64,000 nt of DNA. Origin: Promicromonospora soli (GTDB lineage: Bacteria; Actinomycetota; Actinomycetes; Actinomycetales; Cellulomonadaceae). How positions within the stretch are numbered: the first letter of the stretch is position 1; every line of letters starts with the position of its first letter. The notes beneath the pieces were generated by a model. The model was not told the origin of the DNA, made no database searches, and was given only the letters and a program-made list of their open reading frames with translations. The position numbers were made by a program, and so were the translations under genes. Of this stretch, positions 2,320 through 42,717 are shown piece by piece. The stretch lies in the NCBI RefSeq assembly GCF_014653785.1, contig NZ_BNAS01000005.1, positions 365,368-429,367 on the forward strand. Reading direction: 5' to 3'.

Positions 2320-2423
2320 CGAAGTAGAACTCTGGCGAGAGAGAACTCTGGCGAGGTAAGAACCAGCGGCTTCTGCTGCGGTTCTACCTCGCCAGAGTTC
2401 TCTCTCGCCACAGTTCTACTTCG
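2320..2423. repeat. Long imperfect palindrome between convergent genes, copy 1
   Basis: Two arms of about 45 bp (2320-2364 and 2379-2423) pair with one mismatch and one single-base indel around a 14-nt loop. Each arm is made of tandem 16-bp units: GTAGAACTCTGGCGAG followed by AGAGAACTCTGGCGAG. It fills the gap between the convergent lipoprotein and pstB genes, as expected of a bidirectional terminator. It shares its units with copies at 10.8 kb and 42.7 kb. Confidence 0.88.
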
Positions 2424-2435
2424 GCGAGGGGCTCG

Positions 2436-3215
2436 TCACCCGAAGCGGCCCGAGACGTAGTCCTCGGTGGCCTTCTCGGCGGGCGACGAGAAGATCGTCG
2501 CCGTGTCGTTCATCTCGATGAGGCGGCCCGGCTTGCCCGTGCCCGCGATGTTGAAGAACGCAGTCCTGTCGCTCACGCGCGCCGCCTGCTGCATGTTGTG
2601 CGTGACGATGACGATCGTGTAGTCCTTCTTGAGCTCCTGGATCAGGTCCTCGATCGCCAGAGTGGAGATCGGGTCCAGGGCGGAGCACGGCTCGTCCATG
2701 AGCACCACCTGCGGCTTCACCGCGATGGCGCGGGCGATGCAGAGGCGCTGCTGCTGGCCACCCGACAGGCCGGAGCCCGGCCGGTCCAGGCGGTCCTTGA
2801 CCTCGTTCCAGAGGTTGGCGCCACGAAGCGACGCCTCGACCAGGTCCTCGGCGTCGGACTTGGAGATCTTGCGGTTGTTCAGCTTGACGCCCGCCAGCAC
2901 GTTGTCCCTGATGGACATCGTCGGGAACGGGTTCGGCCGCTGGAACACCATTCCGATGTTCCGGCGCACCGCCACCGGGTCGACGTCTTCCCCGTACAGG
3001 TCGACGCCTTCGAGCTCGACCTTGCCCTCCACGTAGGCACCGGGGATCACCTCGTGCATGCGGTTGAGGGTGCGCAGGAAGGTCGACTTGCCGCACCCGG
3101 AAGGGCCGATGAAGGCCGTCACGGACTTCGGGTCGACGGTCATGGAGACACCCTCGACAGCACGGAAGTCGCCGTAGTAGATGTTGACGTCCTTGACGTC
3201 GATACGCTGGGCCAT
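2436..3215 (-). CDS. pstB: Phosphate ABC transporter ATP-binding protein
   Basis: 259 residues, the usual PstB size. Walker [10 protein letters not shown] is at 37-45, the ABC signature LSGGQQQRL near 150, Walker B VLMDEP near 172, and the switch His in THNMQQA near 206. The CSALDPIST segment after Walker B is typical of PstB. It powers high-affinity phosphate import with PstA/PstC and also takes part in phosphate sensing with PhoU and the sensor kinase. It is the last gene of pstSCAB, 48 bp after pstA, and is followed by a long palindrome that should end transcription. Confidence 0.98.
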
Positions 3216-3263
3216 CTGTCTGTTCCTTCGGGCTGTGGCTTCGGGGGAGCTGAGGTGGGCGGG

Positions 3264-4214
3264 TCAGCGGGTCTTGGGGGCGAACCAGCGGTTCACGAGT
3301 CGACCGGCGATGTTGAGCAGCATCACGATCGCGATCAGCGTCAGGGCAGCGCCCCACGCGTTCTGCAGGGCGATGTCCGCCACGCAGTTCGCCTGGCCCT
3401 CACGGCACGTCGCGAGACCCTGGCTGTACTGCCGGTAGATGAACACCGGCAGTGTCATCATGCGCCCCTCGGACGGGTCGAAGTTGATCGAGTCCGTCAC
3501 GCCGACCGCGACGAGCAGCGGAGCCGTCTCGCCGATGACACGCGCCACGGCCAGCAGCACGCTGGTTGTCAGGCCCGCGACCGCGGTGCGGAGCACGATG
3601 CGGACGATCGTGAGCCACTTGGGCACGCCGAGCGCGTACGCCGCCTCACGGAGCTCGTTGGGCACGAGCTTGAGCATCTCCTCGCAGGACCGCACCACCA
3701 CGGGGATCATCAGCACCGACAGAGCGACGGCGCCGATAAGGCCGAACCGCGCACCAGGCCCGAAGAAGATGGTGAACAGCGCGACCGCGAAGAGGCCGGC
3801 CACGATCGACGGGATACCCGTCATGACGTCCACGAAGAACGTCACCGCCCGGGCCAGCGGGCCGCGCCCGTACTCGACCAGGTAGATGGCGACGAGGATG
3901 CCGATCGGCACGGAGATCAGCGTGGCGCAGCCCGTGATGATCAGCGTTCCCGTCACCGCGTGGTAGATGCCACCGCTCGGGTCGCCACCGAAGATGCCGC
4001 GCATCGAGAACGTCAGGAAGTCGATGCTGATCCGGCCCGCTCCGGTGAACAGCACAGTCCAGAGGAGCGAGACCAGGGGGACCATCGCCAGCAGGAACGC
4101 ACCCCAGATGAGCACGGCCATGATGCGGTCGGTGCGCCTGCGGCGCGGCTCGGCCGTGGTCAGGAGCGCGCGGGTGCGCTCGGTGGCGTCCATGGTGGAC
4201 GTGTCGGCGCTCAT
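3264..4214 (-). CDS. pstA: Phosphate ABC transporter permease
   Basis: 316 residues from the ATG at 4214, which overlaps the pstC stop (ATGA). A cytoplasmic N-terminus of about 30 residues precedes six predicted membrane helices. The permease EAA-type loop (ELREAAYALGVPKWLTIVRI) lies in the C-terminal half and is where PstB docks. The loop before the last helix contains two Cys (CREGQANC). It pairs with PstC to form the membrane channel for phosphate. Confidence 0.97.
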   Translation of the reverse strand: MSADTSTMDATERTRALLTTAEPRRRRTDRIMAVLIWGAFLLAMVPLVSLLWTVLFTGAGRISIDFLTFSMRGIFGGDPSGGIYHAVTGTLIITGCATLISVPIGILVAIYLVEYGRGPLARAVTFFVDVMTGIPSIVAGLFAVALFTIFFGPGARFGLIGAVALSVLMIPVVVRSCEEMLKLVPNELREAAYALGVPKWLTIVRIVLRTAVAGLTTSVLLAVARVIGETAPLLVAVGVTDSINFDPSEGRMMTLPVFIYRQYSQGLATCREGQANCVADIALQNAWGAALTLIAIVMLLNIAGRLVNRWFAPKTR

Positions 4215-5206
4215 CAGTTGGCCCCCGAGAATTCCTTGCGGCGGGCGACGATGGCCCGGGCGGCCATGTTCACCGCCAGTGTGATCACGAACAGCGCGAG
4301 GCCAGTGGCGATCAGCGCGTTGACGGCCAGGCCGCTCGCCTCCGGGAAGTCCAGGGCGATGTAGGCGGCGATGGTCTGCTGCTGCGCCGCCTGGAGGATC
4401 TTGAACGAGTAGAGGAAGCCGGGCGACAGGATCATCAGCACGGCCATGGTCTCGCCGAGGGCGCGGCCAAGGCCCAGCATCGCCGCCGAGATCACACCGG
4501 ACCGGCCGAACGGCAGCACAGCGGTGCGGACCATCTCCCACCGCGTGGCGCCGAGTGCGAGCGCCGCTTCCTCGTGCAGCTTCGGGGTCTGCAGGAAGAC
4601 CTCCCGCGAGACCGCCGTGATGATCGGCAGGATCATCACGGCAAGGACGACGGCGACGGTCGCCAGGGTGCGGGCCGTCGGGGAGACGTCACCGGCGAAG
4701 AGCGGGAACCAGCCGAACCACTCGTTCAGCCAGAGCCACACCGGGGAGAGCATCGGCGCCAGGACCGCGACACCCCAGAGGCCGTAGACGACCGAGGGGA
4801 TCGCCGCGAGCAGGTCCACGAGGTAGCCCAGGATCTGCGCGAGCCGGCGGGGAGCGTAGTGCGAGATGAACAGGGCGATCCCCATCGCGACCGGAGTGGC
4901 AAGGAGCAGGGCCAGCACGGCCGCCAGTAGCGTTCCGAAGACGAGCGGTCCCACATACGCGATGAACGACGTGTCGTCGGGGTACCGCGGGACGGCCGCG
5001 GCGAGCTCGGCTTCGCTCGCCGTCATGGCGGGCCACGCCCGCATGATCAGGAACAGGGCGACAGCAGCCAGGGTCGCGAGGATCAGAGCGCCGGCACCTG
5101 TCGTGATCCAGCGGAAGGTCCGGCTGAAGCCCCGCTCGGTGTCGCCGCTCGACCGTCGGCGCCGGACCGGCGCCACGGGAGCGGGCGGGCTGTCAGTGGT
5201 CGTCAC
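4214..5206 (-). CDS. pstC: Phosphate ABC transporter permease
   Basis: 330 residues. The GTG start at 5206 has GAGGAAC 5 bases upstream. An Arg-rich cytoplasmic lead is followed by six predicted helices and the docking loop LHEEAALALGATRWEMVRTAVLP, the EAA motif of binding-protein-dependent permeases. It is PstA's partner. The stop overlaps the pstA ATG. Upstream on the coding strand lie a strong hairpin (5277-5329) and an 18-bp tandem repeat (5233-5268), so pstC is set apart from pstS although the genes belong together. Confidence 0.97.
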   Translation of the reverse strand: MTTTDSPPAPVAPVRRRRSSGDTERGFSRTFRWITTGAGALILATLAAVALFLIMRAWPAMTASEAELAAAVPRYPDDTSFIAYVGPLVFGTLLAAVLALLLATPVAMGIALFISHYAPRRLAQILGYLVDLLAAIPSVVYGLWGVAVLAPMLSPVWLWLNEWFGWFPLFAGDVSPTARTLATVAVVLAVMILPIITAVSREVFLQTPKLHEEAALALGATRWEMVRTAVLPFGRSGVISAAMLGLGRALGETMAVLMILSPGFLYSFKILQAAQQQTIAAYIALDFPEASGLAVNALIATGLALFVITLAVNMAARAIVARRKEFSGAN

Positions 5207-5232
5207 AGATGTTCCTCGGCTCGTCGTGTCTG

Positions 5233-5268
5233 TGTGAGGTCAAGCGTGGCTGTGAGGTCAAGCCTGGC
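5233..5268 (-). repeat. 18-bp tandem direct repeat before pstC
   Basis: Two adjacent copies of TGTGAGGTCAAGCSTGGC (17 of 18 positions identical) lie 27-62 bp ahead of the pstC start. On the coding strand each unit contains CTTGACCTCAC, which looks like a -35 hexamer or half an operator. The spacing is 18 bp, unlike the 11-bp PHO boxes elsewhere, so it may be another regulator's site or a duplicated promoter element. Confidence 0.6.
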
Positions 5269-5276
5269 ACAGCCGT

Positions 5277-5329
5277 ACCGGTGGCCGGGCCACGAGCGCC
5301 TTTGATGCTCGCGCGGCCCGGCCACCGGT
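5277..5329 (-). terminator. Strong hairpin between pstS and pstC
   Basis: ACCGGTGGCCGGGCC (5277-5291) is exactly complementary to 5315-5329, with an inner CGAGC/GCTCG stem around a 9-nt loop. This GC-rich stem sits 35 bp after the pstS stop. It probably works as a partial terminator or 3' stabiliser, so that the binding protein is made in excess of the permease genes downstream. There is no clear T-tract. Confidence 0.75.
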
Positions 5330-5363
5330 CCGGTGTACTGCCAGGTACTGCTCAACGGCTGGC

Positions 5364-6467
5364 TCAGCCGGCCGTGATGGCCTCGACCGACGGCAGGAAC
5401 TGGTCACGCAGGTCGGCCGAGAGCGGGGCGGAGCCCGCCGAGTCCGCGGCAGCGGCCTGGCCCTCGTCGCTCAGGATGTAGCTGTAGAAGCCCTTGACCA
5501 GGTCGGCGATGGCCGCGTCCTCGTACGTGGCGCAGGCGAGCTGGTACGAGACCAGGACGACCGGGTAGGTGCCCGCGATGTCGCGCTTGAGGTCGTACAC
5601 GAAGACGTGGTCGCTCGTGCCCTCGACGCGCGGCGAACCCTCGACGACGGCAGCGGCCGCCTCAGGGCTGTACGGCACGAACTCGTCGCCGACACCCACG
5701 GCCACCGTGCCCAGCTCACCGATCTGCGACGCGTCGGCGTAGGTGATGGTGCCCTCGCCGGCCTGCGCGGCGCTGACGACGCCGGAGGTGCCCTGCGCGG
5801 ACTCCTGGCCCTCGACGGGCCAGATGCCCTCGGGCTCCCAGGTCCACACGTCCGGGACCACCGTGTACAGGTACTCCTGGAAGTTCTCGGTCGTACCCGA
5901 GTCGTCCGACCGGTGCACGACGGTGATGTCCGTGCTGGGCAGCTCGGCATCCGGGTTGTCGGCGGCGATCGCCTCGTCGTCCCAGGCGGTGATCTCGCCG
6001 GCGAAGATCCCGGCGATCGTCTCCGGGGTCATGTTCAGGGTGTCGACGCCCTCGAGGTTGAAGGCGACGGCCACCGGGGAGATGTACGCGGGGTACTCGA
6101 TGACGCCGCCCTCGCCGCACTGCGCCTCGGCGGCGGCCAGCTCCTCGTCGTCCAGCGCGGCGTCCGAGCCCGCGAACGGGAAGGCACCGGAGATGAAGCT
6201 CTCGCGGCCGCCGCCGGAGCCGACCGGGTCGTAGTTCACGGTGACGTCCGGGTACTGGCTCTGGAAGCCGGCACGCCAGGCCTCCATCGCGGACTCCTGC
6301 GCGGACGAGCCGCCGCCGTTGAGCTCACCGGACAGGTCAACGGCGGACTCGGAGCCCTCGCCGGCCGGCTCGGCTGCACCGGGGTCGGACCCGCAGGCTG
6401 CGAGGCTCAGCGCGAGCGCGCCCACCATGACAGCGGAGCCAACGCGGGGGAATCGGCTGATCTTCAC
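5364..6467 (-). CDS. pstS: Phosphate ABC transporter substrate-binding lipoprotein
   Basis: 367 residues from the GTG at 6467, which has GGAAAG 4 bases upstream; an in-frame ATG at 6488 is the alternative. A signal peptide with lipobox LAAC puts it on the outer face of the membrane. PstS signatures are present: GGGSSAQESAMEAW, YDPVGSGGGRE and HRSDDSGTTENF, which build the phosphate pocket. It delivers phosphate to PstCA. A PHO box (6562-6579) about 95 bp upstream suggests direct control by the response regulator encoded at 7921-8619. Confidence 0.97.
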   Translation of the reverse strand: MKISRFPRVGSAVMVGALALSLAACGSDPGAAEPAGEGSESAVDLSGELNGGGSSAQESAMEAWRAGFQSQYPDVTVNYDPVGSGGGRESFISGAFPFAGSDAALDDEELAAAEAQCGEGGVIEYPAYISPVAVAFNLEGVDTLNMTPETIAGIFAGEITAWDDEAIAADNPDAELPSTDITVVHRSDDSGTTENFQEYLYTVVPDVWTWEPEGIWPVEGQESAQGTSGVVSAAQAGEGTITYADASQIGELGTVAVGVGDEFVPYSPEAAAAVVEGSPRVEGTSDHVFVYDLKRDIAGTYPVVLVSYQLACATYEDAAIADLVKGFYSYILSDEGQAAAADSAGSAPLSADLRDQFLPSVEAITAG

Positions 6468-6557
6468 GTGTCTTTCCATCCTGTTCAAGTCGTACGCGCG
6501 GCAAGCGCCGCAGCGTCAGTCGGGAGGCTAGGGAGGCGGAGTGACCTACTCACCAGG

Positions 6558-6579
6558 TCTAGGTGAACGGAGGGTGAAC
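6558..6579 (-). promoter_or_regulatory. PHO box upstream of pstS
   Basis: On the pstS coding strand two 11-bp units start with exact GTTCACC (6579-6573 and 6568-6562). GTTCACC direct repeats at 11-bp spacing are the known PhoP-type operator of Streptomyces and its relatives. Confidence 0.82.
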
Positions 6580-6657
6580 AAGCCCGCCTGGAGCGGGTGA
6601 TCCGCGACACGCCCACCCTGGCACGCCCTTGCGCTTTTCACCCAGCAGGCTCCAGGG

Positions 6658-7803
6658 CTACCCGTCCGCCTGGTCGTCCGGGCGGTCCCGGGTCAGGTAG
6701 ATGGCCCCCGCGGCGTCCATGATCCACGCCTCCAGGTCGCTCGAGATGGCGGCGCTGCCCGCCGCGCCGGCGGCTCGCTGCTGCCCTTCGGCGGACGCGA
6801 CGTACTCGACGAACTCCTTGACGAAGTTCCCCTTTGCCTTGTCCTCGTACCGCGAGCACACCATGAGGTAGGACACGAGCACCATCGGGTACGCGAAAGG
6901 CTTGTCGATCTTCCGGTCGATGACGAAGGCGAGGTCGTGCTCGTAGCGGTTCTCGATCCGCGGCGAGACGTCGACGACCGCGGCCGCGGCCTCCGCGCTG
7001 AAGGGCACATACTCCTCGCCCACCTTGATGGCGACGTTGCCGAGGTCGGAGGTTCGCGAGGCGTCCGCGTAGGTGATGCCGCCGGGCGTGGAGCGAACCG
7101 TGTCGGTCACGCCGCTCGTGCCCTCCGCCTCGAACCCGTCCGGCGTCGGCCAGAGGCCGTCCGGCGGGAACGGCCACTCCTTCGGCGCGGTCGCGTGCAG
7201 GTAGTCGGTGAAGTTCTCGGTGGTGCCCGAGTCGTCGGAGCGGTGGACCGGCGTGATGGCCAGCGCGGGCAGCTTCGCCTCGGGGTTGGCCGCGGCGATC
7301 GCCGGGTCGTTCCACTGGGTGATCTTGCCCGTGAAGATCCGCGCGATCAGGGCCGAGGACAGGTTCAGCTGGTCGACACCCTTGAGGTTGAAGGCCACAG
7401 CGATCGGGCTGATGTAGACCGGCAGGTCGATGGCGTTGCCGCCGTCGCAGGCTGGTCCGGAGGCCACCATCTCGTCGTCGGTCAGGGCGACGTCGGAAGC
7501 GCCGAAGGCCGTGTCGCCCGCGAGAAAGGCCTCGCGGCCGTCGCCCGAGCCCACTGGGTCGTAGCTGATCGCCGCGTCCGGGTGCTGCTCCTGGAACCCG
7601 CTGATCCAGGCCTCCATCGCCGATTCCTGGGACGAGGCGCCCGCACCGTGGAACTCACCGACGACGGCGAGCTGCGGTTCGGTGCTGGGTTGGTCGCCCG
7701 GCCCGAAGCCCGGCAGGTCAGCCGCGGCGCAGCCCGCGAAAGGCAACACAAGGGCGCCTGCGGTGGCGACAGAGAGGAGACGTGCGCATCTGGGGGTACT
7801 CAC
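6658..7803 (-). CDS. pstS: Second PstS-family phosphate-binding lipoprotein
   Basis: 381 residues, clearly a diverged paralogue of the neighbouring pstS. It has a lipobox (FAGC), GAGASSQESAMEAW, YDPVGSGDGREAF and an intact HRSDDSGTTENF pocket motif. The C-terminus is extended by an acidic, hydrophilic tail. It lies in tandem upstream of pstS with a 190-bp gap and has its own PHO box. Gene duplication followed by divergence would give two binding proteins for one PstCAB channel, perhaps with different affinity. The conserved pocket argues against loss of phosphate binding. Confidence 0.94.
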   Translation of the reverse strand: MSTPRCARLLSVATAGALVLPFAGCAAADLPGFGPGDQPSTEPQLAVVGEFHGAGASSQESAMEAWISGFQEQHPDAAISYDPVGSGDGREAFLAGDTAFGASDVALTDDEMVASGPACDGGNAIDLPVYISPIAVAFNLKGVDQLNLSSALIARIFTGKITQWNDPAIAAANPEAKLPALAITPVHRSDDSGTTENFTDYLHATAPKEWPFPPDGLWPTPDGFEAEGTSGVTDTVRSTPGGITYADASRTSDLGNVAIKVGEEYVPFSAEAAAAVVDVSPRIENRYEHDLAFVIDRKIDKPFAYPMVLVSYLMVCSRYEDKAKGNFVKEFVEYVASAEGQQRAAGAAGSAAISSDLEAWIMDAAGAIYLTRDRPDDQADG

Positions 7804-7844
7804 GGTTCGCGAAACTACTCACGGGTGCCGTCCCGCGAGCAAAC

Positions 7845-7866
7845 ACCAGGTGAACGGAAGGTGACC
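7845..7866 (-). promoter_or_regulatory. PHO box upstream of the second pstS
   Basis: On the coding strand GGTCACC (7866-7860) is followed 11 bp later by an exact GTTCACC (7855-7849). This is the same direct-repeat layout as before pstS. It lies about 45 bp ahead of the start codon, so it overlaps the likely core promoter. Confidence 0.75.
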
Positions 7867-7920
7867 AGAGTCGCGATCACCCACGTGAGGTGCGACACCC
7901 GATGGCCGCACCTCCGCAGG

Positions 7921-8619
7921 TCACCCCTCGTCGTCGGCCAGCTTGTAGCCCAGGCCACGCACCGTCAGGAGGTACCTGGGCGAACCCGGGTCCGGCTCGA
8001 TCTTCGAGCGGATGCGCTTCACGTGGACGTCGAGCGTCTTGGTGTCGCCCACGTAGTCGGCGCCCCAGACCCGGTCGATGAGCTGGCCGCGCGTCAGCAC
8101 CCGGCCGGCGTTCCGCATCAGGAGCTCGAGCAGGTCGAACTCCTTGAGCGGGAGCGCCACGCTCTGACCGGAGACGGCCACGGTGTGCCGTTCGACGTCC
8201 ATCCGGACCGGCCCCACCTCGAGCACGCCGTCCTCGTCGTGCTCCGCCGAGTCGCTGGGCTGACGGCGGCGCAGGACGGCCCGGACGCGGGCGAGCAGCT
8301 CCCGGTACGAGTACGGCTTGGTCACGTAGTCGTCTGCACCGAGCTCCAGGCCCACCACCTTGTCGATCTCGGAGTCCTTGGCGGTCAGCATGATGACCGG
8401 CACGTCGCCGCGCGCCCGCAGCTCCCGGCACACCTCCGTGCCCGACAGCCCGGGCAGCATCAGGTCGAGCAGCACCAGGTCCGCCCCCTCCGCGTCGTAC
8501 GCAGCGAGCGCCGAGATGCCGTCGGCGGCCTCGACCACCTCGAAACCCTCGCGGGTCAGCTGGTACGTCAGCGGATCCCGGTACGACTCTTCGTCCTCTA
8601 CCACCAGGATGCGCGTCAC
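7921..8619 (-). CDS. regX3: Two-component response regulator, RegX3/PhoP type
   Basis: 232 residues of OmpR/PhoB architecture. The receiver domain (1-120) has acidic residues at 8-9, the phosphoacceptor Asp52 (LLDLMLPGLSG) and Lys near 101 (TKPYS). A winged-helix DNA-binding domain follows from about 130 to 228, ending in the usual YLLTVRGLGYKL. The GTG start overlaps the kinase stop (GTGA). By synteny with mshA-gpm1-senX3-regX3 of mycobacteria it is the RegX3 orthologue, the master regulator of phosphate starvation. Its likely targets here carry PHO boxes. Confidence 0.96.
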   Translation of the reverse strand: MTRILVVEDEESYRDPLTYQLTREGFEVVEAADGISALAAYDAEGADLVLLDLMLPGLSGTEVCRELRARGDVPVIMLTAKDSEIDKVVGLELGADDYVTKPYSYRELLARVRAVLRRRQPSDSAEHDEDGVLEVGPVRMDVERHTVAVSGQSVALPLKEFDLLELLMRNAGRVLTRGQLIDRVWGADYVGDTKTLDVHVKRIRSKIEPDPGSPRYLLTVRGLGYKLADDEG

Positions 8620-9878
8620 GCACCTACCTCCTCGTTCTTCGTGGCCTCATGGTCTGTGGCCTTGTGCTGGCCCTGCTCGTCTCCCTCACGGGCCACATCC
8701 GCCTGCGGCGGTGGGGCGGTCCGGCCGGCGCGGGTCGCGCCGTCGGGCCGGTCCGCGGACGGGATCCGCAGGGTGAAGGTCGAGCCCCGGCCGGGCTCGG
8801 ACCACATCGTGACGTCGCCACCGTGATCGGCCGCCACATGCTTGACGATGCTCAGGCCGAGACCGGTACCCCCCGTGTCGCGCGAGCGCGCGGGATCCAC
8901 CCGGTAGAAGCGCTCGAAGACGCGGTCCTGCGCATCCTCCGCGATCCCGACGCCCTGGTCCACCACCGCGATCTCGACGAGACCCGCCCGCTCGTTCACT
9001 CCCACGCCCACGCGGCTGGCGGGCCCGGAGTAGGCGACGGCGTTGTCCACCAGGTTGCGGACCGCGGTCACCAGGAGGTTGTGGTCACCGTAGACCTCGG
9101 TGTCCAGGTCCCCGCCCATGGTGATCGCGATGTTCTTGGCCTGCGCTGTGGTGCGTGCCCGGTCGACCGCCTCCTCCACGACCTCGCGGATCGGGACGGG
9201 TGTGAGCTTCGGCACCGCGCCGGCGCCCTGCAGGCGCGACAGCTCGATGATCTCCTGCACCAGGGCGGACAGCCGGACCGCCTCGCGCTGCATCCGTTCG
9301 GTGAACCGGCGGACGGCGACCGGGTCGTCCGCGGCGTCGGCCACGGTCTCGGCGAGCAGCGCCAGCGCGCCCACGGGCGTCTTGAGCTCGTGCGACACGT
9401 TGACCACGAAGTCGCGGCGGATCGCCTCGACGCGGCGCGCCTCCGTGCGGTCCTCCGCGAGCACCAGCACCCGCTCCAGGCCCAGCGGTGCGACCCGCAC
9501 CTGCAGCAGCACTGTGCCCTGGCCCACCGGGCCGCGGGCCAGCTCCAGCTCCTGCTCGCGGATCACGCCGTCGCGCCGCACCAGGGCCACCAGGTCCGTG
9601 ATCGCCGGGTGCACCAGCGCGTCGTTGCGGACCACGCCGAGGGCGTAGGCCGGCGGGGAGGCGCGGATCACCTCGTCCTCGCCGTCCAGCACGACGGCGG
9701 CGGAGCGCAGTACCGAGAGCACACGAACGAGCCCCGCGTCGAGCTCGTCGGGTTCGGCCTGGGGAAGGGCATGCTGCTGCCGTTCGGAGACGCGGAATGC
9801 CAAGGTGGCGACCACGCCGACGATCACGCCGAGAATTCCGGCGAGCAGCACCGGCACCCCGGAGATGATTCCGTCCAC
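8616..9878 (-). CDS. senX3: Phosphate-sensing histidine kinase, SenX3 type
   Basis: 420 residues from the GTG at 9878. The frame is open further upstream, but that part is Arg-rich and lacks a ribosome site. One membrane helix (about 5-27) is followed by a PAS-like region (60-160) and the HisKA box VVNVSHELKTPVGAL with the phospho-His. The ATPase domain has N-box NLVDNAVAYS, G1 DQGVGI and G2 GGTGLGLSIV. The C-terminal 45 residues are hydrophilic and low-complexity. It is co-translated with regX3 and divergent from phoU, whose product is expected to link it to the Pst transporter. Confidence 0.93.
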   Translation of the reverse strand: MDGIISGVPVLLAGILGVIVGVVATLAFRVSERQQHALPQAEPDELDAGLVRVLSVLRSAAVVLDGEDEVIRASPPAYALGVVRNDALVHPAITDLVALVRRDGVIREQELELARGPVGQGTVLLQVRVAPLGLERVLVLAEDRTEARRVEAIRRDFVVNVSHELKTPVGALALLAETVADAADDPVAVRRFTERMQREAVRLSALVQEIIELSRLQGAGAVPKLTPVPIREVVEEAVDRARTTAQAKNIAITMGGDLDTEVYGDHNLLVTAVRNLVDNAVAYSGPASRVGVGVNERAGLVEIAVVDQGVGIAEDAQDRVFERFYRVDPARSRDTGGTGLGLSIVKHVAADHGGDVTMWSEPGRGSTFTLRIPSADRPDGATRAGRTAPPPQADVAREGDEQGQHKATDHEATKNEEVGA

Positions 9879-9950
9879 GACTCCAGGGTAGGTCGACGTT
9901 TCAACCGCAGGTTGACGTCGGCGGGCGGTCGGAGGATCGCGTCGCTTACT

Positions 9951-9983
9951 GTTCATGTGAGGGAGGAAGAGCGTTAACCTCCC
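9951..9983 (+). promoter_or_regulatory. Candidate PHO box in the senX3/phoU divergent region
   Basis: GTTCATGTGAG (9951-9961) and GTTAACCTCCC (9973-9983) are in phase with an 11-bp period, with one degenerate unit between them. The site lies between the divergent senX3 and phoU starts, where autoregulation by the response regulator is expected. The match is weaker than at the pstS genes. Confidence 0.5.
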
Positions 9984-10153
9984 GGTACATCGCGACGTCG
10001 AACCTTGGCGGGTGCGGGCGGTAGCTGTGCCGTGCGCCGTTCCGGGACGTGTCCGGGGCGGCCGGCCCGGCCGCGCGTCGGCCCTGCTCGCCTGACGGCG
10101 GCGTGACAAGCGGACGCGAACCGTCCGCGCGCCCCAAGTGCGAGAGGAAACCG

Positions 10154-10801
10154 ATGCGACAGATCTTCGAAGCTGAGCTCCAGCAGGTCGGAGAGGACCT
10201 GACCGAGATGAGCAGGCTCGTCGAGTCCGCCATCACCCGTGCCGGCACGGCGCTGCTGGAGGCCGACCTTCAGCTCGCGCAGGAGGTGATCGCCTCCGAC
10301 AGGACCATCGACTCCCTCGAGAACTCCCTCGACGAGCGGTGCGTGCACCTCCTGGCGCAGCAGGCCCCGGTCGCGACCGACCTGCGGATAGTCGTGAGCG
10401 CGCTGCGGATGAGCTCCTCCCTGGAGCGCATGGGCGACCTCGCCCGGCACGTGGCGCAGGTGGCCCGCGGACGCTACCCCGCGCAGGCGATCGTCCCCGA
10501 GGCGCGGGACACCTTCGCGAAGATGCAGGACGCCGCAGTTCGCGTCGCGCAGCGCACCACGAAGCTGCTCGCCACGCGCGACCTCACGGTGGCCGAGGCC
10601 ATCGAACGCGACGACGACCTGCTCGACGAGCTGCACCAGGAGACGTTCAACGTGCTCCTGGCGCCCGAGTGGCAGGGCACCGTGCAGGAGGCCGTCGACG
10701 TGACCCTCGTGGGCCGCTACTACGAGCGGTTCGGCGACCACGGCGTCTCGGTAGCCCGCCGCGTCACCTTCCTGGTCACGGGTGACTTCCCGGACGAGTG
10801 A
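10154..10801 (+). CDS. phoU: Phosphate signalling complex protein PhoU
   Basis: 215 residues, all helical, with two PhoU repeats. Each has the metal-binding acidic pattern (RMGDLARHVAQVA in the first half; YYERFGDHGVSVARRV in the second). The ATG at 10154 has GAGAGGAAA upstream, and the long open stretch before it is non-coding. PhoU couples the phosphate load of the Pst transporter to the sensor kinase and keeps the Pho response off in phosphate-rich conditions. It is divergent from senX3-regX3 and convergent with gpmA across a perfect 91-bp palindrome. Confidence 0.96.
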   Translation: MRQIFEAELQQVGEDLTEMSRLVESAITRAGTALLEADLQLAQEVIASDRTIDSLENSLDERCVHLLAQQAPVATDLRIVVSALRMSSSLERMGDLARHVAQVARGRYPAQAIVPEARDTFAKMQDAAVRVAQRTTKLLATRDLTVAEAIERDDDLLDELHQETFNVLLAPEWQGTVQEAVDVTLVGRYYERFGDHGVSVARRVTFLVTGDFPDE

Positions 10802-10808
10802 CCCGCCC

Positions 10809-10899
10809 GCCGAAGTAGAACTGTGGCGAGATAGAACTGGGGCGGAAGCACTGTCAGTGCTTCCGCCCCAGTTCTATCTCGCCACAGTTCTACTTCGGC
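10809..10899. repeat. Perfect 91-bp palindrome between phoU and gpmA, copy 2
   Basis: Forty-five bases on each side of the central base (10854) are exactly complementary. Each arm holds GTAGAACTGTGGCGAG followed by the related ATAGAACTGGGGCGGA, then AGCACTG at the centre. It starts 8 bp after the phoU stop and ends 9 bp before the gpmA stop. That position fits a bidirectional terminator, but its length and perfection far exceed a normal one. Confidence 0.95.
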
Positions 10900-10908
10900 G
10901 AATCCTGG

Positions 10909-11649
10909 TCAGCGACCCTGGTTCGCGACGGCCGCGATCGCGTCCTTGGCGGCTTCCGGGTCCAGGTACGTGCCGCCCGGCTTGACCGGGGACAGGGTCT
11001 CTTCGTCGAGCTCGTAGACCAGCGGGATGCCCGTCGGGATGTTCAGCCCGGCGATGGCCTCGTCGGACACGCCGTCGAGGTGCTTCACCAGGGCCCGCAG
11101 CGAGTTGCCGTGGGCGGCGACGAGCACCGTCTTGCCGGCCTGGAGGTCGGGCACGATGTCGCTCTCCCAGTACGGCAGGGCGCGCTCGAGCACGAGCTTG
11201 AGGGCCTCCGTGCGGATGACGGGCGCGTCGGCGTAGCGCGGGTCGGCGTCCTGGCTGAACTCGGAGCCCAGCTCGATCTCCGGCGGCGGCACGTCGTACG
11301 AGCGGCGCCAGAGCATGAACTGCTCCTCGCCGAACTCCGCAAGCGTCTGCTTCTTGTCCTTGCCCTGCAGTGCGCCGTAGTGGCGCTCGTTGAGCCGCCA
11401 GCTGCGCTTGACAGGGATCCAGTGGCGGTCGGCGACGTCGAGCGCGAGGTTCGCGGTCGAGATCGCGCGGCGCAGGAGCGAGGTGTGCACGACGTCGGGC
11501 GAGACGTCGGCCTCCTTGAGGAGCTCGCCGCCGCGCTTCGCCTCCTCGACGCCCTTCTCGGAGAGAGGTACATCCACCCAGCCGGTGAACAGGTTCTTGG
11601 CGTTCCACTCGCTCTCGCCGTGACGGAGCAGCACAAGGGTGTAGGTCAT
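10909..11649 (-). CDS. gpmA: 2,3-bisphosphoglycerate-dependent phosphoglycerate mutase
   Basis: 246 residues from the ATG at 11649. The catalytic [10 protein letters not shown] (His about 9) starts the protein, [13 protein letters not shown] follows in the middle and [11 protein letters not shown] (second catalytic His) lies near 180. It interconverts 3- and 2-phosphoglycerate in glycolysis and gluconeogenesis. It lies between mshA and the senX3-regX3-phoU group, as in mycobacteria. Confidence 0.97.
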
Positions 11650-11742
11650 GCCCCCATCCTGCCGCACATTCCCGGCCGAACATGATGCCGATCCCAAGCC
11701 CCGGACAGGCATCAGGTTCATGCTCGGCGAAGTTGCTGGTGA

Positions 11743-13098
11743 CTACCTCGTCGCGTGGTGCTTTCGGGCGTCTTCGTAGACCTCGAGCATCTGCTCGGCC
11801 GCGCGGTCCCAGCCGAATCTGGTCGCCGAGTCGCGCGCACCCGCGGCCAGGCGCGCGCGCCACTCGTCGTCGTCCAGCAGGCTCTTGAGGACCAGGGCCC
11901 AGCTCTCGGGCTCGTGGTCGGGCACGAGGACGCCGGAGACGCCGTCCTCGACCACCGTGCACAGACCGCCGACCGCTGCCGCGACCACCGGGGTGCCCGA
12001 CGCCTGGGCTTCCGCCGCGACCAGGCCGAACGACTCGCTGTGCGACGGCACCGCCACCAGATCGGCCGCCTGGAAGTAGCGCGCCAGCGTCCGCTGCGGC
12101 ACCGGGGGCCGCACGAGCACGTGGTCGGCGACACCTTCCTGGTAGGCGAGCGCCTCCAGCTCGCGGACGGCGGTCGGCCGCCCGGAGGCGCCGCCCAGCA
12201 CCACGAGCAGCGGCGGCTGACCGTCCCCTTCCGACCAGATCGGCTCCCCCAGCGCCCGGACCAGCACGTCGGGCCCCTTGAGCAGCTGCACGCGTCCCGC
12301 GAAGAGCACGATCTTCCGGCCCGCCGGCAGCATGAGCCCCTTCCGCAGCTCGGCCAGCTGCCGGTGCGGCGCCGCCGGGTCCCGCAGAGCCTGGTCTCGT
12401 TCCGCCGGGTCCCGCTCCGTGGCGTCGGGCAGCGGGGAGAACACGCCGAGGTCCACGCCGGGCTGCACCACGTGCACCCGAGCCGGGTCGGCCTGGTAGT
12501 CGCGTGCCAGGTCGGCGGCCTCCTGCTCGGTGTTCGCGACCAGCGCGTCGGCCTCGGCGACCACCTGCTCCTCGCCGATGATCCGGCCCTGCGGCTCGGG
12601 TGCGTCCCCCGGCGCGAGGGACGCGTTCTTCACGCGCGCCATGGTGTGCATCGTGTGCACCAGCGGCACGTCCCAGCGCTCCGCCGCGAGCCAGCCCACC
12701 TGGCCCGACAGCCAGTAGTGCGTGTGCAGGACGTCGTACCAGCCCTCGGGGCGGTGCGCCTCGGCGCGCAGCACGCCCGCGGCGAACGCGCACAGCTGGC
12801 CCGGGAGGTCGTTCTTGTCCAGCCCCTCGTACGGCCCCGCGGACACGTGGATGACGCGGACGCCGGGCTCGGCGTCGGTCACCTTGGGCTGGGCCGACGA
12901 CGTCGCCCGCGTGTAGATCTCCACCTGCGCGCCCCGCCGGGCGAGCGCCCGGGACAGCTCCAGCACGTACACGTTCATGCCGCCCGCGTCGCCCGTGCCG
13001 GGCTGCTCGAGCGGCGAGGTGTGCACAGAGACCATCGCGATCCGGAGCGGACGGGACCCGTCCGGATCGGCGAAGTCGGGCGGCAGGCTGATGTGCAT
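11743..13098 (-). CDS. mshA: D-inositol-3-phosphate glycosyltransferase (mycothiol synthesis)
   Basis: 451 residues from the ATG at 13098, which overlaps the stop of the lactonase gene. It has GT-B fold and GT4 features: the N-terminal [24 protein letters not shown] loop, [25 protein letters not shown] and the C-terminal donor site [22 protein letters not shown]. It joins GlcNAc to inositol 3-phosphate, the first committed step of mycothiol, the actinobacterial thiol buffer. A Pro/Arg/Asp-rich insertion (about 235-262) is unusual. The long open frame upstream of this start is an overlap with the lactonase gene. Confidence 0.95.
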
Positions 13099-14183
13099 CA
13101 GGACACCAGGACGCACGCGGGCACTGGCAGCTCCAGTCGATCCGTGATCTGGCCCTGGCCCGTCGCCGGGTCGAGCCGGATCGCCACCAGCTCGTCGGCG
13201 TTCTGCGCGGCCACGACCACGAGCTCGCCGTCGGCAAGGACCGCGTGGTGGCGCGGCCACGCGCCCAGGCCGAGGTCGACGTCGCCGACGTTCTCGATGG
13301 TCAGGTGCCCGACGTCGTTTGGGCCGTCCGCCTCGCCCGACGCCGCCCGCACACGGAGCACCGAGAGGACGTCCGGGCCGCGCACGCCCACGTGCACGAG
13401 GTCGCCCGTGGCGGTGATGTGCGAGGGGTACCCGGGGGCCCCGTCGGGCATGGTGCGGCCGGTGATCGCCACCGAGCCGACGTGCTCCAGGCGGCCTGGC
13501 CCCGCTGGCACCAGGACGTGCAGGCGGCAGTCGAGCTCGCCGACGACCAGGATCGTGCCGTCGGGCAGCTCGACCAGGTGGCGCGGTCCCGTACCGGGCG
13601 GCAGGACGGCGGCTATCTGGCCGCCCGGCGACTCCGGGGCGTCCGCCGGGCCGGACCCGTCGAGCGGGTAGCTGCGCAGCTCGTCCGTGCCGAGGTCGGA
13701 CACGAGGACCCGGTCGCCCCACACGTGCACGAAGTGGGCGTGGGGCCCCTCCTGCCGATCCAGGACCGGGCCGGACCCCGCGTGCGGGAACGTTCGCGGC
13801 GCACGGAGCGCGCCGTTCTCCGCCAGCGGCGCGACGGCGGCCACGCCGTCGGTGTAGTTCGCCACCCAGGCCACGGTGTCGGTCGCCACCACGTGGCAGG
13901 GGCCCGAACCGCCCGAGGCCGCGGCCGAAGCGGGGGAGAGCGTGCCGGCGTCGGACACGCGGAAGGACGTGAGCCGGCCGGGCTCACGCTCGGTCACCGC
14001 CACGAGCGTGCGCCCCGACGGGTCCAGGGCCAGGAACGACGGCGAGGCGGCCTGCACGACGAGCTCCCCGCCCGTGAACTTGCCACCCGGTTCGATGCCG
14101 ACACGCCAGATGCCCTCACCGGTGCCCGGCTCGTTTCCCGCCGTCGGATAGGTGCCGATCCACAGGGCGGTGGGGTTATTCAT
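13098..14183 (-). CDS. Lactonase family seven-bladed beta-propeller protein
   Basis: 361 residues from the ATG at 14183. Motifs WIGTYPTAG near the start, [45 protein letters not shown] and the terminal [22 protein letters not shown] are those of the lactonase (PF10282) propeller family. That family includes 6-phosphogluconolactonase of the YbhE type. The family is catalytically uneven, so the substrate is uncertain; an oxidative pentose phosphate role is possible. It is translationally coupled to mshA. Confidence 0.85.
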
Positions 14184-14231
14184 GCGACCAGCGTAGTGAC
14201 GTTTGCTGGGTGCTCCGGCCGGAATGCACGA

Positions 14232-14267
14232 CGCCCCGGCCACCCCTCGATGAAGGGCGCCGGGGCG
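14232..14267 (-). terminator. Rho-independent-like hairpin after lsr2
   Basis: CGCCCCGGC...CCCT pairs with AGGG...GCCGGGGCG around TCGATGA. The stem lies 28 bp after the lsr2 stop and before the lactonase start, and would end the lsr2 transcript. Confidence 0.75.
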
Positions 14268-14294
14268 CAATCTGCCGTCGTGACTGCGACGGCG

Positions 14295-14627
14295 TCAGGC
14301 GTTCGCCTTCGCGTAAGCCTCCTGGACCTCCGCCGAGATGCGACCGCGGTCGCTCACGGTGAAGCCGTTGGCCTTGGCCCACTCGCGGACCGCGGCGGTG
14401 TCGCTCCCGGAACGGGACCGACGCGTGGTGCCGGTGCCGCGCGCAACGGGCGACTTCACCTTGCGCGCGTGGCCGACCCACGAAGCGAGCGCGTCACGCA
14501 GCTGGGCCGCGTGCTCGGCATTGAGGTCGATCTCGTAGGAGACGCCGTCAAGCCCGAAGTTCACGGTCTCGTCGGCGGCACCGCCGTCCATGTCATCTTC
14601 GAGAACGAGCTGAACCTTCTGAACCAT
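14295..14627 (-). CDS. lsr2: Lsr2 family nucleoid-associated protein
   Basis: 110 residues from the ATG at 14627. The N-terminal dimerisation domain has MVQKVQLVLEDDMDGG and FGLDGVSYEIDL. The basic linker is GTGTTRRSRSGS. The C-terminal DNA-binding domain (IREWA-type, here VREWAKANGFTVSDRGRISAEVQEAYAKA) carries a minor-groove hook, RGR. Lsr2 is the actinobacterial H-NS analogue that silences AT-rich foreign DNA. It lies close to lysS, as is usual in this phylum, though the expected clpC neighbour is absent. Confidence 0.97.
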   Translation of the reverse strand: MVQKVQLVLEDDMDGGAADETVNFGLDGVSYEIDLNAEHAAQLRDALASWVGHARKVKSPVARGTGTTRRSRSGSDTAAVREWAKANGFTVSDRGRISAEVQEAYAKANA

Positions 14628-14802
14628 ACGGGTAGTTCCCTTCCGCGCCACAAATTCCGGGGTTGTTCGCGAGCATGCCGCACTCAATATTGTCATGTCA
14701 ATAATGGGTAAGTGACACCGCTCACCAAAACTTCACCCTGCCGGAGTTGAAGTGCGGGGATTTGATCCCGAAGGTCCGCACGGATAACCTCGGCTGCGCG
14801 CT

Positions 14803-14982
14803 TCACCGGGAAGCGGAATTCCCCGCGCTTTCCGCTGCCGCCATGGCTTCGCGATCCATTCGCTCGAGCGCCTCCCGCTCGTGGCGGTCGGCTCGGAGGA
14901 TCTTACGCATCGCAAACCAGAACAACAGGCCGACGCCCACCGAGGGCGTGAGCCCGGCGAGCACCGCAAGTGTCATATCCAT
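14803..14982 (-). CDS. Small single-helix membrane protein, unknown
   Basis: 59 residues. An ATG at 14982 has GAGG about 9 bases upstream. One hydrophobic helix (about 4-25, LAVLAGLTPSVGVGLLFWF) is followed by a highly charged helix of Arg/Glu/Asp. The layout matches small membrane proteins often found beside lysS in actinobacteria, with no known function. It is 41 bp downstream of lysS on the same strand and so is probably co-transcribed. Confidence 0.7.
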   Translation of the reverse strand: MDMTLAVLAGLTPSVGVGLLFWFAMRKILRADRHEREALERMDREAMAAAESAGNSASR

Positions 14983-15023
14983 CACAAAATCCTCACAAGC
15001 CTCATCTGCGCGGTTTGAAATTC

Positions 15024-16553
15024 TCAGGCGATCGGCTTCACCAGCGGGAAAAGTATGGTCTCCCTGATGCCCTGGCCGGTCAACGCCATGAGCAGGCGGT
15101 CGATGCCCATGCCCATTCCGCCCGAAGGGGGCATCGCGAATTCCATCGCGGTCAGGAAATCCTCGTCGAGCCGCATGGCCTCGTCGTCGCCCGCCGCGGC
15201 CATCCTGGCCTGCGCCTCGAAGCGCTGCCGCTGGACCACCGGGTCGACCAGCTCGGAATAGCCCGTGGCCAGCTCGAAGCCGCGGATGTACAGGTCCCAC
15301 TTCTCGACCTGACCCTTTTTCGTGCGGTGGTCCCGGGTGAGCGGTGACGTCTCCACCGGAAAGTCTCGCACGAACGTCGGCGCCGTCAGGTGGTCGCCCA
15401 CCCGGTGTTCCCAAAGAGTCTCGACGAGCTTTCCGTGATTCAGGAGCTTCTTGTTGCCCACCTCGACATCGAGCCGGTGGGCGATCTTCTCGAGTTCCTC
15501 CACCGACGTGTCGGCGGTGATCTCCTCGCCCAGGCTTTCGGAGAGCGAGTCGTACATGCGCAGGTTTGCCCATTCCCCGCCCAGCTCGTACTCGGAATCG
15601 TCCGCAAGAGTCACGAGCGTGGTGCCGAGAACGTCCTGCGCCGCGGTCTGCACCAGATCCTGGGTGAGAGCGCCGATGGTGTTGTAATCCCCGTAGGCCT
15701 CGTACGCCTCGAGCATGGCGAACTCCGGCGAGTGCGACGAGTCCGCGCCCTCGTTACGGAAGTTCCGGTTGATCTCGAAGACCTTCTCGACGCCGCCGAC
15801 GACCGCCTTCTTCAGGAAGATCTCTGGCGCGATGCGCAGGAAGAGGTCCAGGTCGTAGGCATTCATGTGCGTCGAGAAAGGCCGCGCGGACGCCCCCGAT
15901 GCAATGGTCTGCAGCATCGGCGTCTCGACCTCGAGAAAGCTGCGGCGGTGGAAGTTCTCCCGCAGGGAACGCACCACGCCGGCACGCAGGCGCACCATGT
16001 CGCGTGCGGCCGGGCGGGCGATGAGGTCCACGTAGCGCTGGCGGACGCGCGCCTCCTCGGACAGGTCCTTGTGCAGCACGGGGAGCGGGCGCAGCGACTT
16101 GGCCGCCATCTGCCACGTGTCGGCGAAGATGCTCAGCTCGCCGCGCCTCGACGCGCCGACGCGCCCGTGCAGGAACACGTGGTCACCCAGGTCGACGTCG
16201 GTCTTGAAGGCCGCAAGGGCCTCCTCGCCGAGCACGGCCAGGCTCAGCATGCCCTGGAGTCGGTTGCCCTCGCCGTCCTGCAGCGTGACGAAGCACAGCT
16301 TGCCGCCGATCCGGATGAATACCACGCGGCCGGCGACGCCCACGACGTCGTCCGTCTCCTGGCCGGCCTCGAGGTGGCCGTACGTAGCGCGGACCTCGGC
16401 GACGGCGTGCGTGACCGGGACGGTGACCGGGTAGGGCTCGGTGCCGCTGGCCAGGAGGCGCTCACGCTTCTCGCGCCGGACCCGCAGCTGCTCGGGCAGG
16501 TCGTCGGTCGGCGGGGTCGCGGCACTCTCGGCACCGGAGTTCTCGGTCGTCAC
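15024..16553 (-). CDS. lysS: Lysyl-tRNA synthetase, class II
   Basis: 509 residues from a GTG at 16553. An OB-fold anticodon-binding domain (about 65-165) precedes the class II catalytic core. Motif 2 is seen at [24 protein letters not shown]. Motif 3 at the C-terminus is [16 protein letters not shown]. It charges tRNA-Lys. A 76-bp gap separates it from nadC upstream on the same strand. Confidence 0.98.
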
Positions 16554-16629
16554 GGATGCGATTCTATCGGGGCGCCAAGCTCAAATTTCCCGGTGTGACG
16601 GACGGCGCTCACCCCCACGACAAAAGGGG

Positions 16630-17559: not shown

Positions 17560-18224
17560 TGGCTCACCGTATCCGCAGCGTCACCCGCGCCGGCGTCGTC
17601 GACGATGGCCTGGAGCATCCGCTCCGAGTCCTCGAGATACCGGTCCAGGTCGGCCGCGGCGCCGTCGGCGTCGCCCGCCAGGAAGCGGCGCAGCAGGCCT
17701 GCGTTGCGGTCCACGAAGCCGTCGAAGAACGCGCCGTTCTCGCCCAGCAGGCCGAACGACAGGCGTAGCTCGGCGGAGAGGTTGGCGTGCACGCGGTCGA
17801 GGCGAGGGCTGCCCGCGAGCGCCACGATCCCCGAGTGGAACCGCATGTTGGCGGCGGCGATGTCGCGCCAGTCGCCGCCCAGCCGGGCGGCGAGGGCGGC
17901 GTCGACTGCGTCCCGCATCGCGCGGGCCCCCGGGTGTGCCGGGTCGCCCGCGGCGAGGACCGGCACCTCGATGAGCCGCCGGACCCGGTAGATGTCGACG
18001 ATGTCGGCGAGGGTCGGCGTCGCCACGGCGACGCCGGCGTTGGGCCGCCGGACCAGGAGGCCCTCGTGCACCAGGATCCGGAAGGCCTCGCGCAGGGTGT
18101 TGCGCGAGACGTCGAGCGACTCGCTCACCGACTGCTCCGAGAGCCGCTGTCCGGGGGTCAGCCGTCCGGTGACGATGAGCTCGCGGATGGCGTCTGCGCT
18201 GCGTTCGGCGCGGTCCGGCTTCAC
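17556..18224 (-). CDS. GntR family transcriptional regulator (FCD domain)
   Basis: 222 residues from a GTG at 18224. An N-terminal winged helix (about 5-70; LTPGQRLSEQSVSESLDVSRNTLREAF in pieces) is followed by an all-helical FCD ligand domain with its conserved Asp/His metal ligands (DIAAANMRFHSGIVALAG). FadR/GntR regulators of this type bind organic acids. It is divergent from the NRAMP-like gene and the pxp genes, and their 232-bp spacer carries two identical TTG-AA-CAA dyads, so it probably controls the cassette. It is also translationally coupled to nadC, which may simply be read through. Confidence 0.9.
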   Translation of the reverse strand: MKPDRAERSADAIRELIVTGRLTPGQRLSEQSVSESLDVSRNTLREAFRILVHEGLLVRRPNAGVAVATPTLADIVDIYRVRRLIEVPVLAAGDPAHPGARAMRDAVDAALAARLGGDWRDIAAANMRFHSGIVALAGSPRLDRVHANLSAELRLSFGLLGENGAFFDGFVDRNAGLLRRFLAGDADGAAADLDRYLEDSERMLQAIVDDAGAGDAADTVSQ

Positions 18225-18287
18225 CGGGTCAGTCTACGGACCGGCCGGGGTGGTGCCGTTGGTGGCCGGGCCCGATCGTGGCCCTTC

Positions 18288-18428: not shown

Positions 18429-18456
18429 CGGGCTCCACAACGACCAGGAGGGCACC

Positions 18457-41882: not shown

Positions 41883-42160
41883 GGGCATCCTCTCGATCGT
41901 CATGTGAAAGCCATAGCCAACTCTAGTCGCGGCAAACCACGCGACGTGTACGACGAGAGCGATTCGCAGGAATTTCACCCGCTCGCGGCGCGCGATCCAC
42001 GCGCGCGTCGCGCACGCTGCGAATTATGCCGAATGCGGACGGTGGTTCTGACCACAGGTAACGGTCGGGACACACGACGCATGGCACACTGGACGGGCGC
42101 AAGACCGCCGTCGCGGCAAGACACTTCGGCGTCCATCATCGAGAACTGGAGCACATCGGC

Positions 42161-42661
42161 GTGGAGTTCGACGTCACGATCGAGATCCCCAAGGGTCAGC
42201 GGAACAAGTACGAGGTGGATCACGAGACCGGACGCATCCGCCTCGACCGCATGCTCTTCACCTCGACGCGCTACCCCGACGACTACGGCTTCATCGAGGG
42301 CACCCTCGGCGAGGACGGCGACCCCCTGGACGCACTGGTCCTGCTGGAGGAGCCCACCTTCCCGGGCTGTCTGATCAAGTGCCGCGCGCTCGGCATGTTC
42401 CGCATGCGCGACGAGGCCGGCGGCGACGACAAGGTGCTGTGCGTGCCGACGGGTGACCAGCGCGCCGCGTGGCGCCAGGACATCGACGACGTCTCGGACT
42501 TCCACCGCCTGGAGATCCAGCACTTCTTCGAGGTCTACAAGGACCTCGAGCCGGGCAAGTCCGTCGAGGGCGCCCACTGGGTGGGCCGCTCCGACGCCGA
42601 GGCCGAGATCGTTCGCTCGATCCAGCGGGCCAAGGACACGGGCTACTACGACAAGCACTGA
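42161..42661 (+). CDS. ppa: Inorganic pyrophosphatase
   Basis: 166 residues from a GTG at 42161. It has the family I features: [23 protein letters not shown] in pieces, [24 protein letters not shown] with the metal-binding aspartates, and DDKVLCVP. It removes pyrophosphate from biosynthetic reactions in the cytosol. The divergent dac and convergent NlpC/P60 neighbours are the usual actinobacterial ones. Confidence 0.98.
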
Positions 42662-42664
42662 GGC

Positions 42665-42717
42665 CTGAGTCGGCGAAGTAGAACTATCTCGCCCCCAGTT
42701 CTACGTAGCCGGCTCAG
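42665..42717. repeat. Degenerate palindrome between ppa and the NlpC/P60 gene, copy 3
   Basis: Arms 42665-42685 (CTGAGTCGGCGAAGTAGAACT) and 42697-42717 match at 18 of 21 positions around an 11-nt loop, ATCTCGCCCCC. It shares the GAAGTAGAACT and ATCTCGCC blocks with the longer copies at 2.3 and 10.8 kb. It again lies between convergent genes and even overlaps the stop of the minus-strand gene. It seems to be a shortened or decayed member. Confidence 0.75.

Follow-up and report, generated by a model that had tools for sequence, protein, structure and literature searches.

What does a long palindrome do at the point where two genes run into each other? The question is raised by a 64,000-nucleotide stretch of the Promicromonospora soli genome (assembly GCF_014653785.1, contig NZ_BNAS01000005.1, positions 365,368 to 429,367; hereafter the window), which holds three such palindromes, each between convergent genes. 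A preliminary description took them for one repeat family and proposed that it serves as a bidirectional terminator, a protein-binding insulator or a mobile unit resembling repetitive extragenic palindromic (REP) sequences. Here we follow the family through the source genome and its relatives. The elements are dispersed hairpins whose stems are tandem arrays of 16-bp units, and among the genomes searched they are restricted to the genus. They lie close behind stop codons and never in divergent gaps, their arms covary, and a stem is frequently found at orthologous gaps even where the family has changed. We put at about two in three the probability that they are 3'-end signals that serve both genes in convergent gaps. 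The reading we favour, by inference, is of dispersed palindrome families that supply bidirectional terminators or barriers at 3' ends.

The window does hold all three copies, with limits slightly shifted from those first given, and none is assigned to a strand. Element 1 (2319-2424) is a hairpin with 16-bp units in both arms. The arms had been put at about 45 bp; they do pair, being 98% complementary, and measure 2319-2358 and 2385-2424. The unit repeats at 16 bp in each, with plus-strand matches at 2325-2339 and 2341-2355 and minus-strand matches at 2388-2402 and 2404-2418. Its minimum free energy (MFE) is about -97 kcal/mol on either strand, with z-scores of -13.9 (plus) and -16.0 (minus). 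Element 2 (10808-10900) is a perfect palindrome, as claimed, but of 93 bp rather than 91: arms of 46 bp (10808-10853 and 10855-10900) flank a one-nucleotide centre, and each carries two units around a GGGGC inner hairpin (z-scores of -16.1 and -16.8 on the plus and minus strands). The tandem 16-bp units reported in the arms of both long copies were thus recovered. Element 3 (42664-42718) is indeed degraded: its 22-bp arms (42664-42685 and 42697-42718) are 86% complementary and fold weakly, each has a single TAGAACT, and a tandem repeat was looked for in it and not found. With up to three mismatches the unit has 12 matches in the window, 8 of them in elements 1 and 2, where 1.95 are expected; none of 100 window shuffles reached 12. 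A scan of the entire window with Rfam gave no match above the gathering score.

The family extends well beyond the window. In the source genome (G000; 5.38 Mb in 20 contigs, the window being 72% G+C) the unit TAGAACTSTGGCGAG occurs at 117 places with up to two mismatches, against 15 for the reversed sequence as control. The first 100 places were listed, and 40 stretches around motif places were fetched from this genome for parsing. The parsed set comprises 134 elements, 43 from the source genome and 91 from at least five named relatives, at loci picked for holding the motif. Length, fold and unit-number statistics use 122 elements, the other 12 having a missing arm, an odd layout, a locus edge or runs of N. 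Genes were called throughout with a purpose-written codon-usage caller, unchecked against annotation, which called 91% of the window coding and by which all three window copies stand between convergent genes.

What do these elements share? Their stems are tandem arrays of 16-bp GCGA-RR-TAGAAC-NNNN units, in which RR is AG, GG or GA and the variable 4-mer is mostly TGTG, TCTG, CAGG, TGCA, CCTG, CGCA, TGGG or CGTG. By eye, many open with GCCGA and close with TCGGC, and a subset has a common inner core around CTGATCAG. The orientation of the units is nearly invariant: 124 of the 134 elements are inverted pairs with units strictly in the order plus then minus, seven have an extra match and three are one-armed. 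The two outcomes set out beforehand as refuting the family, its confinement to the window and copies strewn about unpaired, were thus not seen. Elements have a median length of 115.5 nt (range 44-200) and a median MFE of -91.6 kcal/mol with 48 pairs. Near-identical whole elements occur at unrelated loci. One element (L017, 4044-4225) has arms of 3 and 8 detected units, several of the right-arm units being alike, as if recently expanded. Two others have runs of N in their loops (L021, 7234-7358; L044, 3768-3892); these may mark gaps that the hairpin left in the assembly, and draft genomes may then hold more such elements than are counted.

Among 133 elements with both neighbours called (one more lies at a locus edge), 96 are in convergent gaps, 37 in co-directional gaps and none in divergent gaps, whereas neighbouring genes at these loci, themselves chosen by the motif, form 182 convergent, 500 co-directional and 164 divergent pairs in all. 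The earlier claim that the family is found only between convergent genes was therefore too strong. From the stop codon to the first unit the median distance is 9 nt for the 178 gene ends in convergent gaps. For the 35 in co-directional gaps it is 14 nt, and there the next start lies a median of 70 nt away. We also surveyed gaps of at least 20 nt in the source-genome loci for stems scoring 12 or more. Such stems are found in 23 of 26 convergent and 11 of 12 co-directional gaps that bear the motif, and in 8 of 21 convergent and 10 of 106 co-directional gaps that do not; one of those eight (L040) does belong to the family but is short and escaped the motif test. Divergent gaps gave none in 59, and shuffled gaps gave none in any class. 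The idea of a dispersed repeat family acting as a bidirectional terminator thus holds as to dispersal, and the placement fits it: no element is in a divergent gap, elements follow stop codons and a stem is often retained at orthologous gaps.

In some cases the gene actually ends within the element. At 44 of 213 adjacent gene ends the outermost unit supplies its TAG as stop codon, and four more genes stop further inside (L009-L139 and the window). With GCCGARRTAG at the outer end supplying the stop, the last two residues of the protein would be Pro-Lys or Pro-Arg. We considered a role for the unit TAG as a stop in three frames; avoidance of a C-terminal extension would also account for the pattern, and we keep it as an observation. 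That TAG also recurs in a second dialect, described below, is circular evidence because the wider search pattern demanded it.

The two arms are matched, if imperfectly, even where the unit is free to vary. In 44 elements with equal numbers of units, 55 of 112 facing units have an identical 4-mer (9.6 on average and at most 18 in 1000 shuffles) and 78 of 112 an identical RR (shuffled mean 42.6, maximum 58). When facing units are assigned from the fold, which itself favours matches, 143 of 305 4-mers agree against 25 after shuffling. A set of 13 aligned copies, chosen for their arm pattern and their length of exactly 88 nt, points the same way: 98.4% of cells pair, and 62 cells show two-sided change, 4 one-sided change and 9 no pairing. 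The two-sided changes fall at 17 of 42 pairs, and none of 500 shuffles reached the paired or two-sided counts. Two elements of the source genome (L030 and L035) differ at four bases that make up two compensated pairs. Near-identical gapless copies, by contrast with the 88-nt set, are dominated by single changes: 8 double and 28 single in five non-redundant pairs, 25 and 51 in all ten pairs, a count from which odd-layout elements such as L035 are excluded and to which mirroring between unequal arms may contribute. These counts lend no clear support to arm-copying alone as a general rule, and only the 88-nt set is dominated by double changes. Despite these single changes and the lack of G-U bias described below, the facing-unit matches and the covariation of the 88-nt set argue that pairing is kept, be it by selection on RNA, by selection on DNA or by template switching.

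Does the hairpin outlast its own sequence? The genes around the window copies allow this to be followed. Element 1 lies between a plus-strand gene for a 199-residue protein with no Pfam match at E 0.001 (1714-2313) and a minus-strand gene for an ABC transporter ATPase (PF00005; 2436-3215). Element 2 is flanked by a plus-strand gene with a PhoU domain (10154-10801) and a minus-strand gene of the histidine phosphatase superfamily (10909-11649), and element 3 by a plus-strand inorganic pyrophosphatase gene (42161-42661) and a minus-strand NlpC/P60 gene (42714-44051) whose stop codon lies inside the outer arm. The ATPase and phosphatase genes have orthologues in all 13 genomes of the genus, at 92-100% and 94-100% identity respectively. 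Stem scores at these gaps are raw, the shuffle comparison (none at 12 or more) coming only from the source-genome survey with its slightly stricter score. The element-1 gap has a stem scoring at least 13 in 13 of 13 genomes: four are of the TAGAAC kind, two of a TAGTCA kind and seven unclassified by script; among these seven, G190 and G194 hold sequence that by eye resembles the units. At the element-2 gap the gene pair is kept in ten genomes, all with a stem scoring at least 16. It is TAGAAC in G000, G188 and G194, a degraded relative by eye in G193, a different repeated hairpin (GAGTGCTGG or near) in G184, G187, G190 and G192, and others again in G195 and G191. A repeated hairpin CTGAGTGCTGG...CCAGCACTCAG or near lies downstream of the phosphatase gene, in the element-2 gap, in four species (L157, L161, L164 and L165). 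Opposite the phosphatase, G189, G186 and G185 have a gene that looks unlike PhoU (L155, L163 and L166), which suggests a small local rearrangement at the hairpin; by eye, G189 has TAGAAC-like units, G185 TAGTCA-like units and G186 a short hairpin.

At the element-3 gap the stem score is at least 12 in 7 of 10 genomes, and 8 in the source genome itself. Stem scores and family shifts together indicate that at some convergent gaps the stem is kept while the family is exchanged. Comparison of the 134 elements gave 31 pairs flanked by matching genes (at least 70% identity on both sides); several of these have a common inner loop but differ in the number or kind of outer units, and others differ throughout. 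Target-site duplications were sought by eye: the bases from stop codon to element vary between species, and an empty site is consequently undefinable.

Outside the source genome, the two-unit pattern TAGAACNNNNGCGARRTAGAAC occurs in at least 91 stretches of genome contigs, 80 of them listed by name and 11 being the further loci L129-L139. Of the 80, 79 are from Promicromonospora (P. panici, P. thailandica, P. sukumoe, P. iranensis and sp. AC04 are among them), and the sole other is a Shimia metagenome bin that we take for chance. Within the family Cellulomonadaceae the TAGAAC two-unit pattern is in 9 of the 13 genomes of the genus and in none of 208 others; the wider pattern GCGARRTAG-N7-GCGARRTAG occurs in 10 of those 13, in none of the 208 and in none of 183 genomes sampled from other families of the order. 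Within the genus, TAGAAC matches range from 0 to 241 per genome, and a tree built from 39 genes (44,082 columns) shows carriers interspersed with non-carriers. G193 has 39 matches and its sister G187 one (G187 being 83% complete); G192 has 74 and its near relative G190 none. G184, sister to the TAGAAC-rich G194, has 171 matches to the wider pattern and no TAGAAC. Its listed units, and the majority of the G185 and G186 units listed, read TAGTCA, TAGTCG, TAGACA or near. One G184 element (L178) has an inner core nearly the same as that of TAGAAC elements, a likeness that suggests the TAGAAC and TAGTCA dialects are homologous.

Other repeats occupy such gaps too. A repeat search turned up another family that is iterated, CGGTCGGTTGCNNNGAGNTCGGTC; it occurs in 11 of 13 Promicromonospora genomes, against 0 for the control, and by eye often forms inverted pairs with agreeing NNN (L010, 1009-1096; L232-L243). 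Eleven of 12 fetched loci could be classified, 8 as co-directional and 3 as convergent. The iterated and inverted architecture therefore exists with unrelated letters too. Two further repeats were seen in the source genome: a dispersed hairpin (GTTGTGGGCGCGATCGTTGCG or near) in convergent and co-directional gaps, at 58051-58127 of the window, L011 1871-1949 and L018 2759-2829, and, in four co-directional gaps and one other (L047 4041-4166 is among the five), a motif around CGAGCTTGTCGA.

How might such an element work? RNA from either gene would form a stem tens of base pairs long within a few nucleotides of its stop codon. The stem would end, stall or block transcription, fix the 3' end of the transcript, or both. 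Polymerase would thereby be kept from running antisense into the neighbour, and the opposite gene would be spared antisense RNA. Long, U-poor hairpins are also found in Streptomyces, and a long stem with few U is accordingly plausible as a terminator of this class (PMC12207403). The unequal arms, such as the 3 and 8 units of L017, suggest that arrays may lengthen by 16-bp slippage. Arms would be re-matched by replication template switching, by selection or by both, and copies would spread to new loci by some route, one for which no Y1_Tnp gene was found.

Several observations weigh against a role as 3'-end signals. A stable GC-rich hairpin closely behind the stop codon is what an intrinsic terminator should have, but the T/U tract is missing: the 10 nt after the stem hold a mean of 1.66 T (122 elements, both strands), below the 3-4 reported for Streptomyces terminators (PMC12207403), and a scan of window positions 1-20000 for T-tail terminators and promoters detected nothing at elements 1 and 2. 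Bidirectional terminators typically have A-rich tracts, and these too are described as virtually absent in Streptomyces (PMC12207403). Of nine convergent gaps in the window, three have an element and six do not. The fold of element 3 barely beats its shuffles (z-scores of only -2.1 on the plus and -0.8 on the minus strand), and its membership in the family counts through shared sequence only. At a fourth shared gap the stem score is at least 12 in 6 of 10 genomes and only 5 in the source genome, and three further tabulated gap groups, two of which lump unmapped genes, score at most 10 throughout. Arms mostly have 2-3 detected units, a number affected by degenerate units that escape detection, and are equal in 42 of 122 elements; with fold-assigned pairing, 59 left units have no facing partner. 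In the 88-nt set, further pair types number 24 against 24.9 after shuffling, a value that 380 of 500 shuffles reach, and relatedness alone can lift sequences above their shuffles even where no structure exists. Finally, selection at the level of RNA should have left a wobble bias. None appears: in co-directional elements, with innermost units excluded, G-U mismatches number 16 on the transcribed strand and 15 on the other, and a fold-based count (57 and 51) is biased because the plus strand alone was folded.

The missing U-tract speaks for a different account, in which transcription terminates further on, for example through Rho, exonucleases trim the RNA back and the stem protects the mRNA end. 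Elements follow single genes too, as the 37 co-directional cases attest, and only 4-6.6% of mapped Streptomyces 3' ends meet the canonical intrinsic criteria, with Rho or processing suggested (PMC12207403). On its own, however, protection leaves the convergent excess unexplained, 96 of 133 elements where a count of gene 3' ends at those loci predicts about 42%, and we think it unlikely. An account still less probable in our judgement is that the elements are selfish repeats, akin to REP sequences or to miniature inverted-repeat transposable elements, that have no function and are tolerated only behind genes. They look mobile in their dispersal, in the near-identical copies at unrelated loci and in the swings of copy number (39 against 1 in G193 and G187, 74 against 0 in G192 and G190), and to this extent they fit the earlier suggestion of a REP-like unit. 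A transposase lends it no support: Y1_Tnp, the sole transposase family searched, is in 0 of 13 genomes, the control search being positive in 5 of 14 named genomes. The exact two-unit pattern is absent from viral contigs and element 1 has no plasmid match. Gaps without the family, moreover, often hold another stem, which pure tolerance does not predict.

That substitution also tells against a protein site on double-stranded DNA, such as an insulator or a nucleoid or gyrase site, with the palindrome as two oriented arrays. The CGA..TAGAAC positions are strongly conserved in the units (in part a product of the detection method) and the orientation is fixed. A site-specific protein needs neither unrelated hairpins in its place at orthologous gaps nor arm matching that reaches the freely variable 4-mers, and a site of this kind is highly improbable. 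Uptake sequences occur in about 1000 or more copies per genome; set against that abundance, the 117 matches, those listed being mostly paired arrays, make it barely conceivable that the elements are DNA uptake sequences doubling as terminators, a reading we disfavour. It nevertheless supplies the closest precedent, paired uptake signal sequence (USS) hairpins between tail-to-tail genes (PMC1852404), and dialects exist among DNA uptake sequences (DUS) as well (PMC3630211).

We thus prefer dispersed hairpins acting as 3'-end signals, and ask how far these depart from systems already described. A reanalysis of Term-seq data found that Streptomyces terminator hairpins exceed the others compared in length and stability, covary and have few U (PMC12207403). 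The elements resemble them in being high-GC actinobacterial, very stable, U-poor and covarying; the text available to us of that study describes neither a sequence family nor iteration, and its distances run to the mapped transcript end and are not directly comparable with our stop-to-unit distances (PMC12207403). Uptake sequences already provide a case of dispersed inverted motifs that have been proposed to act as terminators where genes converge: the USS/DUS hairpins of Neisseria and Pasteurellaceae likewise form inverted plus-minus pairs enriched between tail-to-tail genes (PMC1852404), and lineage dialects are common to DUS and to the elements (PMC3630211). The elements differ from them in iterating a 16-bp unit within each arm, in matching variable modules across the arms, in their far fewer copies and in the scarcity of T after the stem. 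REP sequences and bacterial interspersed mosaic elements (BIMEs) are extragenic palindromes, mosaics of short units that are uneven among relatives and are associated with REP-associated tyrosine transposases (RAYTs). Our elements, too, are dispersed extragenic palindromes made from short units and uneven among relatives; each is, however, one hairpin of arrays and not an array of hairpins, and Y1_Tnp is missing from the genus genomes. Replication template switching has been proposed to copy one arm from the other, giving compensatory changes of several bases, in work that concerned RNA genes and not a dispersed family at gene ends (PMC8794818). For iteration within arms, matching of modules, dialects without uptake-like abundance and exchange of families at fixed gaps we found no description, subscription literature lying outside the search, and no title or abstract searched was on such elements in Promicromonospora or its relatives.

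If the elements are indeed 3'-end signals, a gene-end signal can stay functional through wholesale replacement of its sequence: the hairpin would be kept, not the letters. The 43 elements of the source genome, together with close relatives in which no two-unit pattern was found, would form a natural experiment on how transcription ends without U-tracts in high-GC genomes, and the genus could likewise show whether compensatory change in stems arises from selection or from replication template switching. A bolder view, which we offer tentatively, is that two or more unrelated self-iterating hairpin families (GCGARRTAG... and CGGTCGGTTGC...) colonise the terminator slots behind genes, that template switching copies and lengthens them and keeps them symmetrical without a dedicated transposase, and that rival families compete for the slots. 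On this view terminators would house palindromes that are at once parasitic and useful, and their sequence would shift genome-wide as dialects.

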